IMG/VR virus record: IMGVR_UViG_3300037883_000122
Span: 1 to 64,000 of that record
Source of the DNA: a virus
Length of the DNA stretch: 64,000 nucleotides
Direction: 5' to 3' (one strand)
Below the pieces are notes generated by a model. That model saw only the letters and a list, made by a program, of their open reading frames with translations. It had not been told where the DNA came from and searched no databases. The position numbers were made by a program, and so were the translations under genes. Shown piece by piece: positions 4,444 through 18,370 of the stretch; position 1 is the stretch's first letter; each line of letters begins with the position of its first letter.

Positions 4444-6645
4444 ATGTCCAAATTGTATCAAATCGGCAACGGTGGTCAGGACGGTACGATCAACTCGCTG
4501 GTCGCCAAGGTTCAAGGTCACTTCAACCGCGGCCCCGCCGTCGACAAGACCCTCGCTTCGCGCGTCGTCGCGATGGAATCGTTCAGCGACGGCGATGTCC
4601 GTACGCAAGAACTCGACACCTCGATCAAGGGCCTGAAGGCTGCCCTCGAAGGCATCAGCTCGACGTTCGCATCGGAAATGAACCAGAACGACGGCATCGT
4701 CGCTGGCAAGCACACGGCTGCTCAGAAGCAAGCTGGTCTCGTCGCTGCGATCGTCGCAGGCGACATGAAGGGCTTCCTGTCGGCGCCGGTCAGCCGCAAG
4801 ATGTCGCTGGAAGGCTACACCTTCATCCCGGCAGTGGGCAACGGTGCGATGGACAAGCGTCAGTCGAAGGCTCTCGAAGCTTACGACGAACGCGAAACGA
4901 AGGCTGCGACCGTGTACTCGGTGGCGTACAACCTCCAGGCTGCTCGCCAGGACGAATTCGGTGAAGCGTTCTTCCCGACCGTCGTCGTGACGCCGGACCA
5001 GTACGGCTACACCGTCTCGATCCGCCTCGTGCAAGTGTACGACGAAGTTCGCCGCACCATCGACGGCGCGGTCAGCAAGAACTTCGGCAAGAAGAACATC
5101 ATCCAGGCATTGATCGACCCGACGATCCTGCGCAACGACCTGTCGAAGATCATCCCGGTCTTCCGTCCGGAAGCTGCTGCAAACTTCGTGTCGCCGACCC
5201 TGGTTCCGACGCAAACGATCGACCACGAAGGCATCTCGGTCGCGACCGGCCCGCTGGCGATCAACAAGCAGTTCTCGCTGCTCGGCATCTCGCAAACCGA
5301 CGCGCTGCTCGAAACCGGCATGCTGGATTCGACCGACGCGATCGACCCGGCTATCAAGCTGTCGGCTCTGTACCTCCAGGTCGGCACGGGCGGCTCGGCT
5401 GAAGTGATCAAGTTCAAGTCGGTGGCCAACATGCAATCGGGTACCTTCACGTACTCGGTGCAGAACAACTACCGCCTGATGTCGCTGAACTTCATCAGCA
5501 ACGCGCTGGTGATCAACAAGAACACGACGAAGGCCGACGGTACGGCTTCGACGGCTCTGGCGTCGATCGTCACGGGCAACTACGAAGTCAAGTTGTCGAT
5601 GCAAGTGTTCGGTACGGTCAACCTGGAACTGGCAGACACGCAACTGTCCGCTGGCGCTGTGTCGATCTACGAAGTGCGTGACGAAGACGGCAACCTGGTC
5701 GACACGACCACGGGTCCGGGTGCAACGATCGCGACGGCTCTGGCCAACGCGCAAGTCATCGGTTACGACCTCGACGCACGTCGCACGAACACGAACCGTC
5801 GTGAACGTGGTCAGCTGCTCGACCTGACGTTCTACAACATGGTTTACGGCGTGCCGCTCCTGTCGCCGATCACGATTCCGCGTCCGCTGACCCTGGGTGA
5901 CCAGAACGATGCGTCGGACCTGGCTGCGCTGATCACGGCAACGCACATCCGTACGTCGAACGCTGCAGTTGCGAAGCTGCTCGAGGCAGAAGGCGCGCTG
6001 AAGGAACTCGTCACCAGCAATGGCGGCCTGTACCAAGGCGATCCGGAAATCCTCGGCGTGGCACGTTTCCTCGTGACGCCGTTCTACGAGAACCAGCAGT
6101 ACAGCGCACCGGCTGTGGTGGACTCGATCAAGTCGCACGAACGTGCGGCCGACATCCAGGCTTCCCTGGTCAACCTGCTGCGCGACATGGTTTATCGCAT
6201 GTACCGCGACTCGGGCTTCAAGGCTGCTGCTGACGCGCTGGCTGGTGGCGTCGCTGCTACGCCGACCGTGATCATCGGTACCGATCCGGTCATCGCACGT
6301 TACCTGCAAGTGACGGGCGACTTCCGCACGCTGGGCAATGACTTCAACGTCAAGATCGTCTCGACGCTGAACATCAACATGCGTGGCAAGATCCGCTTCT
6401 CGTTCGGCGAGTTCGGTGAAGGCAAGGAAGGCGTGCCGAACCCGATGCACTTCGGCAACATGGCATGGAAGCCGGAACTGACGTTGATTCTCCCGCTGCA
6501 TCGCAATGGCGCGAACAGCAAGGAAATCACCGTGCAGCCTGCGTTCCTGCACGTGGTGAACCTCCCGATCATGGGCTCGATCGATGTCTCCGGCATCGAA
6601 CAAGTCGTGACCGCGAAGGTCGCAGTCAACATGCACTCGGTCTGA
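4444..6645 (+). CDS. Major capsid protein
   Basis: The 733-aa length matches the phiKZ-type major capsid protein (747 aa for gp120, from memory). The segment EAFFPTVVVTPDQ (about 174-186) and the alternating strand-rich middle and C-terminal parts look like a large HK97-fold capsid subunit. Codon use is strongly biased to a few codons (TCG, GGC, CTG, AAC), as expected for the most abundant protein. It has its own ribosome site (AAGGGATAG) and a strong terminator at 6735. The acidic, helical N-terminus (1-110) may be a cleaved propeptide; I see no decisive protease site. Residues 265-306 and 381-450 have a paralogue in the gene at 12714. The next large gene downstream is an RNA polymerase beta subunit, the same order I recall around gp120-gp123 of phiKZ. 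Confidence 0.8.
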   Translation: MSKLYQIGNGGQDGTINSLVAKVQGHFNRGPAVDKTLASRVVAMESFSDGDVRTQELDTSIKGLKAALEGISSTFASEMNQNDGIVAGKHTAAQKQAGLVAAIVAGDMKGFLSAPVSRKMSLEGYTFIPAVGNGAMDKRQSKALEAYDERETKAATVYSVAYNLQAARQDEFGEAFFPTVVVTPDQYGYTVSIRLVQVYDEVRRTIDGAVSKNFGKKNIIQALIDPTILRNDLSKIIPVFRPEAAANFVSPTLVPTQTIDHEGISVATGPLAINKQFSLLGISQTDALLETGMLDSTDAIDPAIKLSALYLQVGTGGSAEVIKFKSVANMQSGTFTYSVQNNYRLMSLNFISNALVINKNTTKADGTASTALASIVTGNYEVKLSMQVFGTVNLELADTQLSAGAVSIYEVRDEDGNLVDTTTGPGATIATALANAQVIGYDLDARRTNTNRRERGQLLDLTFYNMVYGVPLLSPITIPRPLTLGDQNDASDLAALITATHIRTSNAAVAKLLEAEGALKELVTSNGGLYQGDPEILGVARFLVTPFYENQQYSAPAVVDSIKSHERAADIQASLVNLLRDMVYRMYRDSGFKAAADALAGGVAATPTVIIGTDPVIARYLQVTGDFRTLGNDFNVKIVSTLNINMRGKIRFSFGEFGEGKEGVPNPMHFGNMAWKPELTLILPLHRNGANSKEITVQPAFLHVVNLPIMGSIDVSGIEQVVTAKVAVNMHSV

Positions 6646-10095: not shown

Positions 10096-12171
10096 ATGGT
10101 GAATTTACAAGGTGGTCAGCTGCCTGCAGACCCGTACAACGCGGAACGGCAGCCTCTGCAGGGTATCTCGATCGGTAATCCCCCATTCGTCCCGCAGTTC
10201 AATGCGCCGGGATTCATGGGTGATCTGATCCCTGTGATTGCTGGTGCAATTGCGACGGACATTCAGGAGAACGCGCTGCGCACGCCCGCGCGCATGTTCA
10301 CGTATAACCTGGTGTCGCGCAACGCCTTCCAGAACGAAATCTTTGCAGGTCTCGTAATCGGAGTGACGGACTGGGTCTGTCTGGCGCTGGCAGATCGTAA
10401 GTTCCAGAACCCAGAACAAGCAGCGCAGGCACTCGTGCCGAAGATGGTCGAGATGTTCGTGGCCATCCAGATTCTGCAGTACCAGGAGTTGCAGAAGGAC
10501 TGCCCGCCGCAAGCGCAGCAGACCGTCGAGAACCTGGGTCGGATCTGGACCGAGTTGCAAAACGAAATCCCGCAGTTCAAGGCATCCAATGTCTACGCGC
10601 AGATGATGCAAGGCGGCTTCGGCGGCGGGAATGTCGGTGGTGGTTGGGTGCAGCAACAGCAAGGCAACCGTTGGGGTGGCGGTGGTCAGGCTGGTGGTCA
10701 GTGGGGTGGAGGCGGTGGTCAGAACCAGGGTGGACGTTGGGGCTCGGGTAACCAGGGCGGTGGCTGGCAGGGCAACCGTCAAGCACCACGTCAATTCACG
10801 GGGATGAACGCCGGTAACACGGGTCTGTTCACGGGCGGTGGCGGCGGCACAGCCGAGGGTAGCAGCTCGGATCGCTTCAACACGGATCGTTTCGCGAGCC
10901 GTGGCGATGCTGCGCAACAACAGCACAAGCCGGACCCCAATTCGTCCTGGGTGCCGAAGAACGCTCCGTCGGAGAAGGTCGACAAGATGACCGTGGCGGC
11001 AACAGCGCCAGTGCAGCAGGTGGAAACGAAACCGGTGCAGAACGAGCCGGAACACATCGACACCACCAAACTGAAGTGGCGTCCGTCGTTGTCCCAGCCG
11101 TATGCGCTGGCGTACAACCCGCGTACGCAACTGATGTATCTGCAACAGCAAGCCGACGGCACTGTTCTCCAGCTCGTGAAAGAAAGGACGGAAATTCCCA
11201 TGGACCGTGAAAAGCATCGCCTACCCACAACCTTCGGTAGCGCACCGAAGAACGTCGATACCAGCAAGTCTGCCGAATCGCTCCAACGCGTGAAGGCTGG
11301 CGTGAAGGAACTGACGGCAGTGGTCGGCGACGGTGAAGCGGGCGAAGAACCGCCGAAGCGTCCGTTGGTGCAGGTGATCGAAGATGCATGGGTGCTGGAA
11401 ACGTCGGAAACCCTGGCGTGGCTGCAAGGTACCCTGAAGTGCATGGCAACGGTGAAGGACTCGCAAGTGCCGGACGTGTTCCGTGTGCGTGCGCAAGTGG
11501 CCGAGCCGTTCGTCGCAGCAGTGGACGAACGTGGTGCGATCCAGTCCTTTGCAGAAGCGAAGTCGTACTCGGAACTGCGCGAGATGATGTTGTCGGTGGA
11601 AGGTGCGATGTCGGCGGCGCTGTATCAGGCCGTCAACCTGCGCATGACCGATGTCATCAATCGCGTGCTGGGCCAGAGCCTGTCGATTCCGGATATCCGC
11701 ATCACGTCGTTCGTCGACGACGCGGAAGATGTGGGTCCGGCGATCGAGCAGTACTACGGTGATGCGTTCTCGAATGCTTTCCTGGGCAACCAGGTGAAGA
11801 ACATTCGCGCAGCGTTTGCCGAGTTCGTCACGGAAGAAGAAGAGGTGCTCCTCACGGAGAACCTGCTGATGGATCGCGAGTATTCGAAGGACAAGGGGCC
11901 GAAGATCACGTATCTCGTCGCCAACTTCACGCTCACGTATCTGAACGTGTCTGCTATCGAGCTCGAGTTGGAACTCGATCCGGCGGACAAGATTGCCTCG
12001 ATGATCACGAGCGATCTGCCGGAGTTGTACGAGCTGGCCCGCAGCATCTTCGAAGCGACGGAAGGCGAGAATTTCCATCGCCATCTGATTCGCACGGCTG
12101 ACGACCATCTGCTGGAAGTCACGCAAGGCCTCATTGGCCAGGACGTGTATCTGATCCGTAAGGTGAAGTAA
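10096..12171 (+). CDS. Gly/Gln-rich protein, probable virion protein
   Basis: 691 aa. Three parts can be seen: an N-terminal mainly helical domain (1-170); a low-complexity region (about 170-245) of G, Q, N, W and R with repeated GGGG, GGNQG and RWG patterns; and, after a linker rich in K, P and T, a C-terminal alpha/beta domain (about 390-691). No enzymatic motif is visible. The central part resembles prion-like or RGG-type sequences that drive self-association. Codon bias is strong, suggesting high expression. It sits between the RNA polymerase gene and a terminator at 12186. Function unknown. Confidence 0.7.
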   Translation: MVNLQGGQLPADPYNAERQPLQGISIGNPPFVPQFNAPGFMGDLIPVIAGAIATDIQENALRTPARMFTYNLVSRNAFQNEIFAGLVIGVTDWVCLALADRKFQNPEQAAQALVPKMVEMFVAIQILQYQELQKDCPPQAQQTVENLGRIWTELQNEIPQFKASNVYAQMMQGGFGGGNVGGGWVQQQQGNRWGGGGQAGGQWGGGGGQNQGGRWGSGNQGGGWQGNRQAPRQFTGMNAGNTGLFTGGGGGTAEGSSSDRFNTDRFASRGDAAQQQHKPDPNSSWVPKNAPSEKVDKMTVAATAPVQQVETKPVQNEPEHIDTTKLKWRPSLSQPYALAYNPRTQLMYLQQQADGTVLQLVKERTEIPMDREKHRLPTTFGSAPKNVDTSKSAESLQRVKAGVKELTAVVGDGEAGEEPPKRPLVQVIEDAWVLETSETLAWLQGTLKCMATVKDSQVPDVFRVRAQVAEPFVAAVDERGAIQSFAEAKSYSELREMMLSVEGAMSAALYQAVNLRMTDVINRVLGQSLSIPDIRITSFVDDAEDVGPAIEQYYGDAFSNAFLGNQVKNIRAAFAEFVTEEEEVLLTENLLMDREYSKDKGPKITYLVANFTLTYLNVSAIELELELDPADKIASMITSDLPELYELARSIFEATEGENFHRHLIRTADDHLLEVTQGLIGQDVYLIRKVK

Positions 12172-12185
12172 AACGTCCAACGACG

Positions 12186-12219
12186 GGTCTGGGGGGTAAC
12201 TCCCAGACCTTCTTTTTTT
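12186..12219 (+). terminator. Rho-independent terminator
   Basis: GGTCTGGG (12186-12193) pairs with CCCAGACC (12202-12209), followed by TTCTTTTTTTATGCC. This one has both a good T-run and the recurrent TATGCC tail. Confidence 0.85.
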
Positions 12220-12246
12220 ATGCCCGTGTATGCCTGAGGAGGCGTC

Positions 12247-12690
12247 ATGAATCTCAAGGTCAATGAAGATCTGGAAGCACTGAATGTCCACGATAAGCGG
12301 ATGAACGTGCTGGTGACCGGCGGTAAAGAAGATGATCGCGCTGTTATCCAGGACGTCATCTTCAACGCATTGGAAGGAGCGGGCTTTCGTAGCCTCTATT
12401 ACGAGGCGAACGCTTATAGCGCTGAACCGCCGATGGAAGTCAAGTCGATTCTGGATGCCATGAAGGAACAGAATCCTGCTTTCTTCGACATGCCGATTAC
12501 GATCGAGTCGGCGAATCGCATCTACGATACGGTAGGTGGGACTATTACCGAGGCGTGCGATTTCCCCGAGGAAGTCCCGAACAACGAAGCGTGGCAGCGC
12601 GTAACGGATCGTTTGAATCGCCTCCACGGCAACACCGACCGCGGTCCGCTCGAAATGGAAGTCAACGGCAATATCGTGATTCGCTTCTGA
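12247..12690 (+). CDS. Small alpha/beta family protein, copy 1
   Basis: 147 aa; ATG preceded by GAGGAGG. First of five paralogues between 12247 and 16363. The shared core is strand (MNVLVTGG), helix (RAVIQDVIFNALEGAGF), strand, helix ending in NPAFFDMPITI. The consensus of the family is xNPxx[FM]xxP[IV]xI after the second helix. The C-terminal ~50 residues differ from the other copies. The N-terminal strand-loop-helix resembles a degenerate P-loop without GK[ST]. Function unknown. Confidence 0.75.
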   Translation: MNLKVNEDLEALNVHDKRMNVLVTGGKEDDRAVIQDVIFNALEGAGFRSLYYEANAYSAEPPMEVKSILDAMKEQNPAFFDMPITIESANRIYDTVGGTITEACDFPEEVPNNEAWQRVTDRLNRLHGNTDRGPLEMEVNGNIVIRF

Positions 12691-12713
12691 AAGACCAAGG
12701 AAACAAGGAAACC

Positions 12714-13862
12714 ATGAAAGTCATCCCGCAGTACAGCTTGGAACACGCCGAATACTTCGTCGACGGGAAGTTCAATCATGCCGAAAACAAAACGGTCACG
12801 ACAGGTCGCTCCGTTCTCAGTGCCCCGCTCGTCATCGCGAAATCGATTCCGTTTCTCGAACTGGCCAAGACAGATCTACTGCTCGAAGAAAATGTGATTG
12901 ATTCGAAATGGGCGATCGATCCTGAGTACGTGCGGCTGGAATCGGTGGCCATCGAATTCCCTGGCTTGCCCAAGCTCATCAGTTCGCATATCGGTCTGAA
13001 TGTCGAAGAGGCGCTCTTTCGTCCGACCGCGCAACACACACCACACCACCTGCTGATCGTCAAGAAGAAGATCCCGGTGATCGTCGGTTTGTCGGAACTG
13101 GCCGCCTGCAGCAGTTACGACGATCGTGCAGCCCATGCACCGCTGCTGCAATATGCAGCCGAGCAGAACCTGCATCTGGTTTTCTCGATGGAGATCTCGG
13201 GTTCGGTGAACATAGCGACCGGCACGGTTCGTCTTTTGTCGAACTCGTTCGATCTCGTGTCGATTCTGGACCACGCAGGCAGACTGCTTGAAGCCACGAA
13301 CAGTGCAGAAATCAATAAACTGCGCGAGTACGTGAAAGACGCACATCCGCGCGGCTACTCGTTGGATGCGAACTGGCTACAGACGAACGAAGCCCAGACC
13401 TATCAGTTCGAGATGGGTGACCCGAATCCAATCGGTCGCGGCATGGCACTCCTGGTGCGCGGTTATCTGTTGTCGGCTCCTTCGGTCGGCTACGCAGCAG
13501 AGATCACCGAACCCTCGGTGAGCAAGGTCGGTGCCACCAAACTCTACCTACAGCCTGATCGTACCTCGGAACCGGAATGGTACGTGACGATCGAGGAAGG
13601 CTTTGAGTTGTCGCCGGGTGAGTGCAACATCGCGTTCCATGCTCACGGCACGGAATGGGCCAACGTACTGGACGATAACAACGAAACGATCAAGCGCTGG
13701 AAAGAGCTCGGTCGTTGGGAAAGTATCGCACCCGGCGCGTACGGTTTGTGGGTCGAAGCAATCGCGCAATTCCTGCTGGATGGCGAGGAGTATTATTTGA
13801 CGAACACGTTGCCGGATACGATTCCCGAAGGTGTGGGGTATCGCGCAACTGACAACGGTTAA
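12714..13862 (+). CDS. Partial paralogue of the major capsid protein
   Basis: 382 aa; ATG 12714 has AAGGAAACC just upstream, and a longer reading would overlap the previous gene. Residues 33-75 align without gaps to capsid residues 265-306 with about 19 of 42 identities (shared TD.LLE....DS..AIDP), and residues 153-218 align with capsid 381-446 (SM...G.VN, GY.LDA). The N-terminal third and C-terminal third of the capsid protein are absent, and residues 230-382 have no visible match. I read it as a duplicated capsid domain turned into a separate protein: a minor head, decoration, vertex or assembly protein. Its neighbours are members of the small alpha/beta family. Confidence 0.75.
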   Translation: MKVIPQYSLEHAEYFVDGKFNHAENKTVTTGRSVLSAPLVIAKSIPFLELAKTDLLLEENVIDSKWAIDPEYVRLESVAIEFPGLPKLISSHIGLNVEEALFRPTAQHTPHHLLIVKKKIPVIVGLSELAACSSYDDRAAHAPLLQYAAEQNLHLVFSMEISGSVNIATGTVRLLSNSFDLVSILDHAGRLLEATNSAEINKLREYVKDAHPRGYSLDANWLQTNEAQTYQFEMGDPNPIGRGMALLVRGYLLSAPSVGYAAEITEPSVSKVGATKLYLQPDRTSEPEWYVTIEEGFELSPGECNIAFHAHGTEWANVLDDNNETIKRWKELGRWESIAPGAYGLWVEAIAQFLLDGEEYYLTNTLPDTIPEGVGYRATDNG

Positions 13863-13895
13863 GTCAGAGACCATCCTGAAAGGAGTAAGTGACGC

Positions 13896-14297
13896 ATGAG
13901 CGCCCGTAAGAACCCTGTCCTTCCCGTGACTGTTTCGATGGCTGATAACGTGCCGAATCCGTTCGGTTACGCGATCATGGGAATCCTGCAGGCTAAGCTG
14001 TTAGCAGTGCGTTCGGTATTTCCGAACATCCAGCTGAAAACTATGTACGTGTGTGAGACGCCGGATGAAATGGCCCACACCCAGTTCTGCTTCCTGGATC
14101 TGAATCGCATGGGAGACAAAATCCCCTATGTGACGATGAGTGAGTACCAGGACCCAGACGGTGAAGTCCGCTACGATCTCTGGTTACACCAGGACGGTCG
14201 AGTGGAAGAACTCTTCGTCGAGGCGATTATCGAAGAAGTAGTTGTGGCTGCCAATACCGTCTGGACGCACCTCAAACCGCAGGCGCTCTCGAAGTAA
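13896..14297 (+). CDS. Hypothetical protein, 133 aa
   Basis: ATG with GGAG eleven bases upstream. The start (LPVTVSMADNVPNPFGYAIMGILQ) has a strand-loop-helix outline like the neighbouring family, but the NPxxFxxP motif is missing, so I do not count it as a sixth copy. The middle is strand-rich (QFCFLDLNRMGDKIPYVTM) and the end is an acidic helix. It is co-directional with the block, 33 bases after the capsid paralogue. Confidence 0.65.
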   Translation: MSARKNPVLPVTVSMADNVPNPFGYAIMGILQAKLLAVRSVFPNIQLKTMYVCETPDEMAHTQFCFLDLNRMGDKIPYVTMSEYQDPDGEVRYDLWLHQDGRVEELFVEAIIEEVVVAANTVWTHLKPQALSK

Positions 14298-14322
14298 AAC
14301 TTACGACCCCGAACCATCAGAT

Positions 14323-14351
14323 GGAGAGCGCTCCGGCGTTCTCCGTCTTAT
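14323..14351 (+). terminator. Hairpin followed by TTATG
   Basis: GGAGAGCGC and GCGTTCTCC (14323-14344) form a 9-bp stem with one G-U pair and a TCCG loop, followed by GTCTTATGAAC. There is no T-run, so termination may be partial. Confidence 0.5.
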
Positions 14352-14368
14352 GAACCCAGCGAGGAAAG

Positions 14369-14818
14369 ATGAGTCCCGAAGACATCAACATCACCGTCGA
14401 AGCCCAAGGCGCAGAAACACGCCAACTGGTTGCGAGTTTGATCTCCAACCGTCTGACGGAGGCGGGCTTCACGAACGTCGACGTGGGTCTCGCGACCCGC
14501 GAAGACAAAACGAGCACGCCCATCGCCGCGGAAGCGATGCCGTCGTTGCTCGACGCAATCAAAGAAGCCAACCCGGCTGTGTTCGCACGTCCGGTGAGCA
14601 TTCTGGCCATGCCCTTTAGCGACATCATCGACGGCGAGCGGATCGTCCACGTGGCGTTGATGAAGGATCGGTCGGATATGGAAGAAGGTCCGGAGCTGGA
14701 GCCGGGCCAAGGTCGTTTGGAAGACGGCACGATCATCGATCTGGCGACCTATGTGTCACCGGACGGAACGCGACTGGCAGAAGCTCTGATCGAAGTCGGC
14801 GCGGGTCAACACGTCTAA
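14369..14818 (+). CDS. Small alpha/beta family protein, copy 2
   Basis: 149 aa; GAGGAAAG ribosome site. Core: INITVEAQG strand, RQLVASLISNRLTEAGF helix, NVDVGL strand, SLLDAIKEANP helix, FARPVSILAM strand. The remaining ~65 residues are acidic and lack a recognised motif. Nine bases separate it from the next copy, so the two are probably co-translated. Function unknown. Confidence 0.75.
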   Translation: MSPEDINITVEAQGAETRQLVASLISNRLTEAGFTNVDVGLATREDKTSTPIAAEAMPSLLDAIKEANPAVFARPVSILAMPFSDIIDGERIVHVALMKDRSDMEEGPELEPGQGRLEDGTIIDLATYVSPDGTRLAEALIEVGAGQHV

Positions 14819-14827
14819 GGAGTACGG

Positions 14828-15439
14828 ATGGCACAGGTATCCGAACGCTTCGCTGCCCAAAAGGAACGCATCCTGGAACGTCTTCAGGAAGGCCCCTTAA
14901 CGGCATTAGAAGCCTTGGAGAATTTGGGTGTCATGCGAATGGCTGCCCGAGTTCACGATCTGCGAGCAGACGGTCATCCGATCGTTTGTGAGACTGTCGT
15001 TGTGCCTAACCGATTCTCGGAAGAAAGTCGGGTGGCACGCTACAGCTTGCAGCCCGAACAACATAATCAACCTACGAAGCAGGGAAGTAACATGAGCGAA
15101 GCACTTGACAACAATCCGACGCAAGCCGCAGGCATCATCATTGCCTCGGACAACATCAACCAGCGTCAAGCTATCTCGGTTGCCGTCAGCAAAGGTCTGA
15201 AGGACGCCGGTTTCACCAACGTCACGGTGGTGGTCGACAAGAGCGACGACCCCAGCCGGATCGACGTCACACCCGAAAATGCGGAATCGCTGCTCGGCTC
15301 GATTAAGGCCCTCAATCCCGGCCTCTTCGACGCGCCGATCAACATCCTCGCCGCAACGGGCGGTGGCGCGGGCGCAGAGCTCGTGCAGGACATCATGGCC
15401 GACGCCCAGGAAGACGGCTCGGCAGTGACCACGTTCTAA
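14828..15439 (+). CDS. Helix-turn-helix domain fused to small alpha/beta family protein, copy 3
   Basis: 203 aa; ATG with AAGGAG upstream. Residues about 5-75 look like a phage winged helix-turn-helix (LTALEALENLGVMRMAARVHDLR), of the type that controls phage or plasmid genes. Residues about 100-180 are the family core (AGIIIASDN, LKDAGFTNVTVVV, SLLGSIKALNPGLFDAPINIL). Between them, Met89 (ATG 15092) has its own good site AGGGA, so a 115-aa family protein without the DNA-binding part is probably also made. It could be a real fusion or two genes whose stop was lost. Confidence 0.75.
   Translation: MAQVSERFAAQKERILERLQEGPLTALEALENLGVMRMAARVHDLRADGHPIVCETVVVPNRFSEESRVARYSLQPEQHNQPTKQGSNMSEALDNNPTQAAGIIIASDNINQRQAISVAVSKGLKDAGFTNVTVVVDKSDDPSRIDVTPENAESLLGSIKALNPGLFDAPINILAATGGGAGAELVQDIMADAQEDGSAVTTF
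15092..15096 (+). promoter_or_regulatory. Internal start site inside the HTH fusion gene
   Basis: ATG 15092 is in frame with the longer gene (codon 89) and is preceded by AGGGAAGTAAC. It matches the usual distance and strength of real starts in this window. It would give the family domain alone. Confidence 0.5.
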
Positions 15440-15459
15440 GCAGTAATCGTCACCGGCTT

Positions 15460-15485
15460 GCCCTGCTTCGGCAGGGCAGCTATGC
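15460..15485 (+). terminator. Tetraloop hairpin terminator
   Basis: GCCCTGC-TTCG-GCAGGGC (15460-15477) is a perfect 7-bp stem with a stable TTCG loop, followed by AGCTATGCCTCTT. No T-run follows, but the TATGCC tail is present. Confidence 0.65.
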
Positions 15486-15514
15486 CTCTTTACAACGGAA
15501 ACAAGGAAAAGATC

Positions 15515-15859
15515 ATGTCTCTGGAAGAGCACGAAGAAGCCGCAGCCAGTATTGTCATCAGTGCACGCAGCAGCGACCTTGCCCAGGCTTTGGGTAAGGT
15601 TGTTGGTCATGCGCTGACGGAAGTGGGCTTCAGCAGTGTCACTGTGACCCACAGTGACGAGGAGGGCGAAGAAGCGGTCGATCAAACCGATCTGGAGCAA
15701 GGCAAGTCTTTGCTGGAAGCCATCGCGGATGCGAACCCGGATACGTTCCGTGGTCCGATTGCGATCCACAGCTTCGGCTTGAGCGATGAGACGGATATGC
15801 TCCCGCCGGAAGAATCAGCACACCTCGCCGAGATCATTGCGGAGAACGACGAGGATTAA
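15515..15859 (+). CDS. Small alpha/beta family protein, copy 4
   Basis: 114 aa from ATG 15515, chosen for the AAGGAAAA site; the frame is open upstream but crosses a terminator hairpin. Core: SIVISARSS strand, ALGKVVGHALTEVGF helix, SVTVTHS strand, SLLEAIADANP helix, FRGPIAIHSF. It is the shortest copy with little beyond the core, and very acidic at its end. Function unknown. Confidence 0.72.
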   Translation: MSLEEHEEAAASIVISARSSDLAQALGKVVGHALTEVGFSSVTVTHSDEEGEEAVDQTDLEQGKSLLEAIADANPDTFRGPIAIHSFGLSDETDMLPPEESAHLAEIIAENDED

Positions 15860-15874
15860 CCCGAGGAGAGTAAG

Positions 15875-16363
15875 ATGGAGACGCCAGTCAACATCTTGGT
15901 GGAATCACCCGATCCGCTCAAGGCGAATCTGGTTGGCAAGGCCATCGCACAGAGCCTGAGGGACAGCTATGGCTTTAACACGGTCATGCATGCCCATGTG
16001 TTGGTCGACACACCGGAGAGCCGTTCCTGGACGGTGTCGACTGCTGAGGAGCAGGAGGAGAGTATTCTGCAGGCCATGGTGAATCTCAATCCAAGCATCA
16101 TGGACACGCCTGTTACTGTCCTGAGCCGCGGCAACGACGACACGTCTGAGCCTGACATCTCCAAGATCGACCAGCTGCAAGGGCATCGTGGGATTCTGCT
16201 TCAAGGCATCGGTGACGAAGCAGTAAGCTTTGATGAGCTGCGGGAAAAGGCGTGGCAGGCGGCTCAGCCCACGCTTCGGCCGATGGTCGAGAAGTTCGCC
16301 CAGGAAATGATTGACATGTTCGATAGCTCGGGCTTGTCGGCCACCGGGGTCAAGAAGTTCTAA
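15875..16363 (+). CDS. Small alpha/beta family protein, copy 5
   Basis: 162 aa; GAGGAGAG site. Core: NILVESPDP, helix to YGFNTVMHAHV, SILQAMVNLNPSIMDTPVTVLS. This is the most divergent copy (Met replaces Phe in NPxx[FM]xxP). The C-terminal ~70 residues form extra helices. A hairpin separates it from the P-loop protein that follows. Confidence 0.7.
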   Translation: METPVNILVESPDPLKANLVGKAIAQSLRDSYGFNTVMHAHVLVDTPESRSWTVSTAEEQEESILQAMVNLNPSIMDTPVTVLSRGNDDTSEPDISKIDQLQGHRGILLQGIGDEAVSFDELREKAWQAAQPTLRPMVEKFAQEMIDMFDSSGLSATGVKKF

Positions 16364-16371
16364 TGCAGTAG

Positions 16372-16391
16372 CGGGTGGAGCAATCCACCCG
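16372..16391 (+). terminator. Hairpin between family copy 5 and the P-loop gene
   Basis: CGGGTGGA-GCAA-TCCACCCG is a perfect 8-bp stem with a GCAA tetraloop, followed by TCTTAAGGAG, which is already the ribosome site of the next gene. It may be a weak terminator or an RNA end that protects the mRNA. Confidence 0.45.
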
Positions 16392-16408
16392 TCTTAAGGA
16401 GAGAAAAG

Positions 16409-18370
16409 ATGACGAATCGCTTCAAAGCAGGCGTGCGCGTGACCATCGACGGTCACTGCCATACGGGCAAAACAATCCTGATGCAGGCTTTCGCGGCCTT
16501 TCTGGAACAATGTGGCTTTCCGGCGGAACAGATCGCTCAATTGTGCGACACGCATGAAGGCGCGCGTATGAAAGGCCAGGATGCTATCGATTACCTGAAG
16601 AAGGCGATTGCCGACGGTCTCTGGAAGGACAACCAGCTGGTCTTCCTCGAGCGCATCGTACCGCGTGCCTTCCGAGCCGATCCGGCCAAGCCGATGATTC
16701 TCGAGTGGGATGCCATGCCGGATCTGTCGCAACACGCACTGCCGCACAATCCGGCGTTTGCGCTGCCACATTCGCAGGTGGAGTTCGAGATGACGAATCG
16801 GCCTTCGAAAGCAGACGCGGTCCGTAACAGCCTGCTGGTGATGCTGAAGTTCGCGGGTGTGATGGCCGCCATCAAGAACTCGCTGCCGCAGGGTGTGACT
16901 GTTCCCACGGATGTCGAGGAATGGATCGCGAAGGCCGGGGTCTTCGCAGAACACACTGATCCGGCACGCTTGGATGCTCCGGACGTGATTGCTGAAACGA
17001 ATCGCGACTACTTCAACGTGTGGGCTGCGGGTGGCGACTCAGTCGCAGGACGTGCAGCTCAAAAACGCCTCATGTTCGCCGGAATGGAAGTTCCTGAGAT
17101 CAAGGGTGTGCGTTTTAAGGATTCGTCCAAGCTACTCCAGCCCAAGCGTTTCTGGCAAGCAGGTTCTCCCGGTGCACTGTTGCTCAACGAAGCAGACCCT
17201 GCTGCAGAACTGACAGCCAGTCTGTGTCGTCGTGGTTATCGCGACTTCTTCGAGGAGCACGCGATCGGTAACTTCGACGTCGTCGATCGTGAACGGGCAG
17301 GGTTCTATTACGATCGTGCCCGTGAGGAGCAGGAGCCGAACAATCCGCACCGGGCGATGATGGAAGTGAGTGTCTATCGTAAAGACAGAGTACCCCTGAC
17401 GAAGGAGGCAGTCGAAACCGCTCGTCAGATGCTCTTCCAATACGATCCGCTCATCATCCTGACGGTCAAGCTGCAGAACTCCAGTCTTTCTGGTGCTCAT
17501 GTCTCGGCCAGCAAGCCGTTGTTCAAGAAGCAACCGCGTGGGATGACCTCCGCCATCTTGCATTTCGATGATGCGCCGTTCCAACCGCGCCTGGAAACCT
17601 TGGCGGACATCACCAAGAACCACTTCGCAGTGCGCGCTACGGACGCTCGTCCTTTCACGCCTGAAGGTGGTTGGCCTGCAGACTTTGATGTTGCACCGTA
17701 TCGCCAGCAGATTCATCCGATCACGGGTGAAACGCTGAATCAAATGGCGGATCGCGCTCAACCGTTCATCAAGACGAAGAACCTGGGCGAACATGTCGCA
17801 CTGGACTACTCGGATCTTCCGGCGGATCTGATGTTTGATCCGAAGTGCGGTGTGCGCTGGAAGACGACGGCTGAAATGGCAGAAACGCAGGCTGAAGTGG
17901 ATCGAATCTTCGACGCTGTGCAGGATGGAACCGCACAAATCGTTCGTGATGGTACCGGTGAAGTCATGATGGTGTTTTTGCCGACACCAGCTGATGAAGT
18001 TCGGGTTCTGAATCCGGAACCGAAGCCCGCGTACTTCAGCGGTATTACGGATGATTCTGCGCAGGCATCGGCGGACGTGAAAGACCTGTTCGCTGAAGCG
18101 CCGCCCATCAGCAAAGGCCTTCAGTTGACTCCGGAGCAGTCGCAGCAGTTCGAAGAGCGTCTAGCCAGACCAGCTCCGCCTACCGAAGCAATGAAGAACG
18201 CGCTGGACAAGCTTCGTTTCGGTGCGCCGGTAGTTAACGCAGAGCCGACGGCGTTCAGTGTTCTCGAGGGTGACAAGTCTTCTGTCCAACCAGCACCTAC
18301 CAGCAACCTGACCAAGATCCACGACGGCGGTACGAACGGCAATCGCTTCTTGCCGCCTTCTGACGAGTAA
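16409..18370 (+). CDS. P-loop protein, 653 aa, function unknown
   Basis: AAGGAG precedes the ATG. The N-terminus has a strand and Walker A motif VTIDGHCHTGKT (residues about 11-22), as in kinases or small NTPases. A following helix ends in CGF, and a second helix (AIDYLKKAIADGL) and strand (NQLVFL) follow, which parallels the layout of the small alpha/beta family just upstream. The next ~450 residues are mixed and unrecognised. The last ~100 residues are Pro/Ala/Ser-rich and probably disordered. It ends at a bidirectional terminator facing the portal gene. A nucleotide-dependent assembly or nucleotide-metabolism role is possible; neither is shown. Confidence 0.7.
   Translation: MTNRFKAGVRVTIDGHCHTGKTILMQAFAAFLEQCGFPAEQIAQLCDTHEGARMKGQDAIDYLKKAIADGLWKDNQLVFLERIVPRAFRADPAKPMILEWDAMPDLSQHALPHNPAFALPHSQVEFEMTNRPSKADAVRNSLLVMLKFAGVMAAIKNSLPQGVTVPTDVEEWIAKAGVFAEHTDPARLDAPDVIAETNRDYFNVWAAGGDSVAGRAAQKRLMFAGMEVPEIKGVRFKDSSKLLQPKRFWQAGSPGALLLNEADPAAELTASLCRRGYRDFFEEHAIGNFDVVDRERAGFYYDRAREEQEPNNPHRAMMEVSVYRKDRVPLTKEAVETARQMLFQYDPLIILTVKLQNSSLSGAHVSASKPLFKKQPRGMTSAILHFDDAPFQPRLETLADITKNHFAVRATDARPFTPEGGWPADFDVAPYRQQIHPITGETLNQMADRAQPFIKTKNLGEHVALDYSDLPADLMFDPKCGVRWKTTAEMAETQAEVDRIFDAVQDGTAQIVRDGTGEVMMVFLPTPADEVRVLNPEPKPAYFSGITDDSAQASADVKDLFAEAPPISKGLQLTPEQSQQFEERLARPAPPTEAMKNALDKLRFGAPVVNAEPTAFSVLEGDKSSVQPAPTSNLTKIHDGGTNGNRFLPPSDE

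Follow-up and report, generated by a model that had tools for sequence, protein, structure and literature searches.

A five-member family of small acidic proteins interleaved with a capsid-protein paralogue in an FLC9-like jumbo phage

Why does a jumbo phage carry five diverged copies of one small protein side by side? Jumbo-phage heads and takeover factors include many unassigned paralogues, and the locus studied here is a compact case. The initial annotation read its five related genes as the result of repeated tandem duplication under selection, and suggested hetero-oligomer assembly, internal head proteins or arms-race proteins as roles. We analysed the locus in a stretch of 64,000 nucleotides (hereafter the window) from a 98.8-kb IMG/VR virus record (IMGVR_UViG_3300037883_000122).

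The window comes from a phiKZ-like jumbo phage whose nearest described relative is Burkholderia phage FLC9 (megablast, 83% identity over 45% of an 8.3-kb query). The nvRNAP-like gene and the major capsid protein (MCP) are 97% and 94% identical to those of FLC9 at the protein level. FLC9 and the Chimalliviridae genus Chiangmaivirus have been put in one family by a review (PMC12388082). The gene order DnaB / capsid protein / 7106 / nvRNAP / 10096 / ... / 18459 (minus) / 21378 was also found in Xanthomonas phage LucasX, and FLC6 shares the left part of it. The five-gene block is flanked on one side by the MCP/nvRNAP block and on the other by genes with LucasX counterparts for which similarity to virion structural proteins is noted. 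The protein encoded downstream of nvRNAP (10096-12171) has a Gly/Gln/Trp-rich stretch at residues ~170-250 and a C-terminal half that is conserved in FLC6, FLC8 and SURPRISE13 (about 22-23% identity).

The shared domain and its genes

Five genes, here called A to E, were found where the initial annotation had placed them (Table 1), C starting at 15092 or being fused from 14828, and they share one domain. In local alignments all ten pairs beat shuffled sequences: z was 5.9-17.4, and zero of 1000 shuffles per pair reached the observed score. Copy B, used as query against the 98.8-kb record, retrieved the other four (E 7e-10, 4e-9, 7e-5 and 2e-3). When 3392 ORFs from the window, from FLC9 and from the relative G002 were searched with a family profile, it returned the five-copy clusters and one distant extra copy per complete genome, with zero significant matches beyond these. 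The core was as first described, strand-helix-GF-strand-helix-NPxxFxxP[IV]xI, with its G, L, N and P unchanged across 19 sequences. A short shared motif, a simple fold and pairwise identities of just 20-35% might suggest chance resemblance between unrelated small alpha/beta proteins, but this was ruled out by the shuffles, the single-query retrieval, the tree described below and the profile search, and the copies are also adjacent and each conserved in related genomes.

A-E form a protein family missing from every curated library searched, with zero matches to Pfam, NCBIfam or PDB families, in agreement with the initial annotation. PDB sequence matches (de novo protein M7, TFIID subunit 8) weakened or vanished when a fuller alignment was used, and a PDB fold search gave zero matches. 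AlphaFold models of copy C (pLDDT 68, pTM 0.58) and of the B core (pLDDT 70, pTM 0.44), both of low confidence, contained the expected helices; DSSP assigned helices only, and the strands of the shared core are those read from the sequence. Among viral models, the C model had a sole good match, A0A1L7N106 of Ralstonia phage RP12 (probability 1.00, TM 0.50/0.54, E 9e-3, 22% identity), which was not repeated with the B core model. Four of ten family members matched phrog_38013 in register over the core, at marginal significance (best E 0.0021, range 0.002-0.009). phrog_38013 and A0A1L7N106 are both 107 long and, judged from this length, are probably the same family; they may be remote relatives of A-E.

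All thirty cluster proteins are strongly acidic (pI 4.1-4.7, net charge -9 to -23). A-E of the window have pI 4.1-4.5; the median of annotated FLC9 neighbours is 5.25.

Copy C had been described as the C-terminal half of the gene starting at 14828. The family domain is present there, but this ORF (14828-15439) opens with 88 codons of an inserted, separate winged-helix domain (HTH_39). The start of copy C is very probably at 15092, because the copy has its own Shine-Dalgarno sequence (a GGAAG-type ribosome site common to the window and FLC9) and a start matching that of FLC9 (MSEALENN). The HTH_39 cassette also has its own Shine-Dalgarno sequence. It is in frame with C, no stop codon intervenes, and thus a cassette-C fusion, a separate C product from the internal start, or both are possible. 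Among the relatives examined, only the window phage has a cassette between B and C; no homologue was found in FLC9 or G002, and FLC9 copy C, unlike that of the window, is without the winged-helix extension.

The terminator-like hairpin upstream of A would end the upstream gene and isolate the cluster. With the GCAA-loop hairpin after E, it suggests that A-E, neighbour F and the capsid paralogue plausibly form one transcription unit. Neighbour F had no match in Pfam or PHROG.

Table 1. Features of the block and its flanks (12185-18370) in the window, and related genes in other records
Feature	Record or locus	Position	Strand	Evidence or remark
Intrinsic terminator-like hairpin and T-run	window	12185-12210	+	11-bp stem, TCTTTTTTT tail; RNA fold -21.9 kcal/mol, z -4.3
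Family copy A, 147 aa, pI 4.5	window	12247-12690	+	Aligns to B, z 10.6; orthologue clade (FLC9, G001, G002, G005, G006) support 100/99
Truncated MCP paralogue, non-member of the five-copy family	window	12714-13862	+	PF25620 (PhiKZ_MCP), E 9e-18
Neighbour F, 133 aa, unrelated to A-E	window	13896-14297	+	70-89% identical across clade
Family copy B, 149 aa, pI 4.3	window	14369-14818	+	Finds all five as query; orthologue clade 99/96
Winged-helix (HTH_39) cassette, reads in frame into C	window	14828-15091	+	PF14090, E 3.6e-14; phrog_4973, E 6.6e-14
Family copy C, 115 aa, pI 4.1, probable own start	window	15092-15439	+	Start and ribosome site common with FLC9; clade 97/97
Family copy D, 114 aa, pI 4.1, net charge -23	window	15515-15859	+	Aligns to B, z 14.2; clade 96/96
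Family copy E, 162 aa, pI 4.5, fast-replaced	window	15875-16363	+	Aligns to C, z 10.5; clade 97/98; mosaic dropout in relatives
GC-rich hairpin, GCAA loop, between E and next gene	window	16371-16392	+	RNA fold -17.3 kcal/mol, z -4.3
P-loop (GHCHTGKT) protein, mosaic build, conserved position after E	window	16409-18370	+	Walker A conserved in six genomes; patchy DNA similarity
P-loop protein after E, other versions	L048	10881-12911		
	L051	10800-12593		
	L052	10792-12261		
167-171 aa gene between E and P-loop gene	L048	10354-10857		
	L051	10273-10776		
	L052	10253-10768		
	L047	10296-10799		
Sixth copy	G002	78102-78503		L085 4103-4504
	G007	195180-195578		
	G006	214504-214899		
	FLC9	207887-208270		
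Sixth copy with MCP-like residues	L086	4172-4636		
Stand-alone MCP middle-domain copies	G002	149121-149879, 149928-150683		L150
	FLC9	136688-137440		L133

Age and order of the set

Exactly five copies, in unchanged order, occur in FLC9 and in at least six further viral contigs of the clade. Scanning viral contigs with the copy C and copy B alignments gave eight records, 8/8 with five copies in the block; several of these records come from near-identical strains, and one is a duplicate of the window. The 17.6-kb contig IMGVR_UViG_3300037451_000180 runs collinear with the window, the offset being constant, and the compared parts are identical; it was therefore left out as independent evidence. 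FLC9, G002, G005, G006 and G007 share one order (A, capsid paralogue, F, B, C, D, E, P-loop gene); G001 has the same order and all five copies, minus the capsid paralogue. In FLC9 the five orthologues, from A to E, are FLC9_gp88, gp85, gp84, gp83 and gp82 (LC667451), which are 45-81% identical and annotated merely as hypothetical proteins.

A maximum-likelihood tree built from 30 sequences placed every copy in a clade of its own (support 96-100 / 96-99); 4 label changes, the minimum, were enough for the five copies. The tree gave no firm branching order among the copies, and the tree program warned of long branches. Because each copy forms its own clade across genomes, in the same order and the same number, the duplications predate the FLC9-like clade and copy number is fixed. 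Tandem duplication of one gene, as proposed in the initial annotation, is supported by the retrieval, the alignments and the tree. The ongoing duplication that the annotation implied is not supported: copy number is five in every other record with the block, the order is unchanged and each copy is one clade. A search of jumbo phage genomes for copy-number variation, also proposed there, found the number fixed at five wherever the block is present.

Profile searches did not find the family in LucasX or the FLC6 group, though both keep the flanking genes, nor in 16 further reference jumbo phages, which gave one match of E 0.03 (Ea35-70). The block was therefore acquired and multiplied, and then became fixed, in the common ancestor of the FLC9-like clade. 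LUCX_289, at the equivalent place in LucasX, was rejected as a single-copy ancestor (sequence unrelated, zero profile hits in LucasX). FLC6 gp121, at the equivalent place in FLC6, is unrelated by eye, and zero profile hits were obtained in FLC6. Ochrobactrum phage OC, Microcystis phage Mel-JY01 and phage D6 gave weak matches at chance level, and a scan of bacterial genomes with copy A returned zero matches. The locus offers a natural design of five orthologous series over several genomes, one of them hypervariable, and the presence of the fixed five-member set in a culturable phage, FLC9, makes it directly testable.

Selection, copy E and the P-loop gene

In comparisons among G002, G005 and G006, dN/dS of A-D was 0.02-0.09. 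Between the window and FLC9 it was 0.20-0.30, with synonymous sites of A and D near saturation; the value for nvRNAP was 0.04. Gene-wide positive selection was not seen in A-D. These ratios indicate that A-D are under purifying selection, and values below 0.1 among close relatives do not resemble an arms race. Identity to orthologues in the G002/G005/G006 group was 31% for A, 54% for B and about 66% for C, versus 93% for nvRNAP.

When genomes with about 94-95% identity to the left and right of copy E are compared, DNA similarity vanishes over much of E itself, and similarity of the P-loop gene after E is patchy between the same near-identical genomes. Tree end branches among the same three genomes were 0.3-0.6 for E proteins, versus less than 0.06 for A-D. 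The pattern in E looks like allele replacement by recombination, and by these comparisons E is the only one of the five copies that behaves like a diversifying gene. As a set, A-E look like fixed parts rather than a freshly expanding weapon.

The P-loop gene varies in size (375-676 aa), and two versions of it weakly match a divergent family B DNA polymerase model. Four relatives have a gene of 167-171 aa between E and the P-loop gene; it is missing in the window and FLC9. The P-loop protein has a strand-loop-helix start similar to that of A-E, but a degenerate P-loop origin of A-E was rejected (hhalign probability 1.8%, not significant); the Walker A motif is absent from all of A-E.

Capsid links and possible functions

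The capsid paralogue reported among the five copies is real. The gene at 12714-13862, whose start was set by alignment to FLC9, matched PF25620 at profile positions 142-367 of 635 only, and matched the phage's own MCP (4444-6645) with a BLASTP E of 1e-12. It corresponds to about MCP residues 235-458, with a different C-terminus, and by these alignments is a domain paralogue of the PhiKZ major capsid protein, short of a full capsid protein. It is missing in G001 while all five copies remain; the paralogue and A-E thus need not work together.

Large or complete genomes have a sixth, divergent copy away from the block, which matched the five-copy alignment in profile-profile comparison (probability 93%, E 3e-7). 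In G002 and G007, ~45 residues between its domain halves match residues 186-230 of the phage's own MCP (BLASTP E 8e-8; z 10.8 versus shuffles), and the profile matched capsid genes of six records (E 2e-8 to 9e-7). The MCP-like stretch is weaker in the G006 sixth copy, and no match to it was found in that of FLC9. It is a second capsid link beside the block paralogue, and may have arisen by descent or by convergence. The sixth copy lies in a non-structural region with small genes and, by eye, an apparent thymidylate synthase.

The reading that we favour, with a probability of about 0.42, is an ancient tandem duplication followed by specialisation of the five copies as subunits of a late, head-associated hetero-oligomer. 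In this reading, tandem duplication of an acidic ancestor with a single domain, about 90-160 aa long, preceded the diversification of the FLC9-like clade, and the five paralogues specialised and were retained as an ordered set in one late-region insertion between conserved virion and RNA-polymerase genes. Their products would be subunits of a mixed assembly, each in a non-equivalent place, expressed late and most likely associated with the head or head assembly. Copy E would be the subunit that is exposed or faces the target, and this would account for the replacement of its alleles along with the mosaic P-loop gene next to it. Fixed, ordered, diverged and co-maintained acidic paralogues under purifying selection fit specialised subunits better than a shifting arsenal. 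A role in the head or its assembly is suggested by the surrounding structural genes, by the paralogue of a capsid domain and by the capsid-like segment in the sixth copy. Among the roles first suggested, a hetero-oligomeric or head-associated one would best fit the fixed set as far as sequence can tell, and the arms-race role would apply mainly to E. A head-associated set would illustrate how duplicated phage proteins become specialised for capsid positions that are non-equivalent.

Large paralogue families occur among the head proteins of the related phage SPN3US (PMC5694885). Its head paralogue family B is, like A-E, a lineage-specific expansion in a phiKZ-like jumbo phage with many adjacent members, although those of the tandem run are longer (265-500 aa). 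By analogy, these families are a precedent for the pattern of a paralogue set, but they are unrelated to A-E; membership in family B was rejected (hhalign probability 0.9% versus the tandem-run members). The phiKZ inner-head proteins of PF12699 also have several paralogues per genome and are located in the phiKZ head (PMC5694885). Membership in PF12699 was likewise rejected: zero A-E members match the Pfam model, and the true PF12699 genes of FLC9-like phages (hits in FLC9 and G002) are elsewhere in the genome, apart from A-E. The shortest family forms start only a few residues before the first strand and thus have no space for a long propeptide, which counts weakly against a protease-processed inner-head type of protein. 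Besides the missing match to either head family, a head role is opposed by the lack of the capsid paralogue in G001, the non-structural surroundings of the sixth copy and the lack of a detectable MCP-like stretch in the FLC9 sixth copy.

Counter-defence or host takeover is the main rival, possible, chiefly for E, but on balance unlikely. A-E would be small acidic decoys (e.g. DNA mimics or inhibitors of several host targets), one target per copy, with E under current pressure. This explanation stays in contention because of acidity, fast divergence and the replacement of E. Every copy has the strong acidity expected of DNA mimics, against a regional median pI near 5.3, but acidity by itself is common in phage proteins. 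The copies evolve faster than their flanks, yet purifying selection on A-D is strong. E and the adjoining P-loop gene are replaced between near-identical genomes, and a winged-helix cassette was inserted beside C; however, copy number and order are invariant. The whole block is an insertion that is missing in LucasX and FLC6, but it lies within a late structural neighbourhood. Similarity to PADLOC-DB entries, which list defence rather than anti-defence proteins, was zero. In a counter-defence role, E would mark the site of current host pressure.

We consider it less probable still that A-E serve phage metabolism or regulation, e.g. as small ligand- or nucleic-acid-binding regulators, and are linked to capsid genes by accident. 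The distant sixth copy adjoins apparent nucleotide-metabolism genes, but five paralogues are maintained inside a structural neighbourhood. Copy C gained a winged-helix DNA-binding domain in the window phage; however, high acidity speaks against direct DNA binding, and a ligand-binding motif was not found in A-E. The next gene after E encodes a P-loop protein, but the profile comparison with it was not significant.

A more specific form of the favoured head-associated assembly seems doubtful. The hetero-oligomer would be unique to FLC9-like jumbo phages, and its five acidic subunits (six with the distant copy) would have co-evolved with pieces of MCP, namely the capsid domain inserted in the block and the capsid segment grafted into the sixth copy. 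It would be an accessory capsid or assembly module, with E as its variable, recombining subunit.

Stand-alone copies of the MCP middle domain (residues about 235-450) were also observed in G002 and FLC9, where they adjoin a gene that by eye resembles a cyclophilin-type prolyl isomerase.
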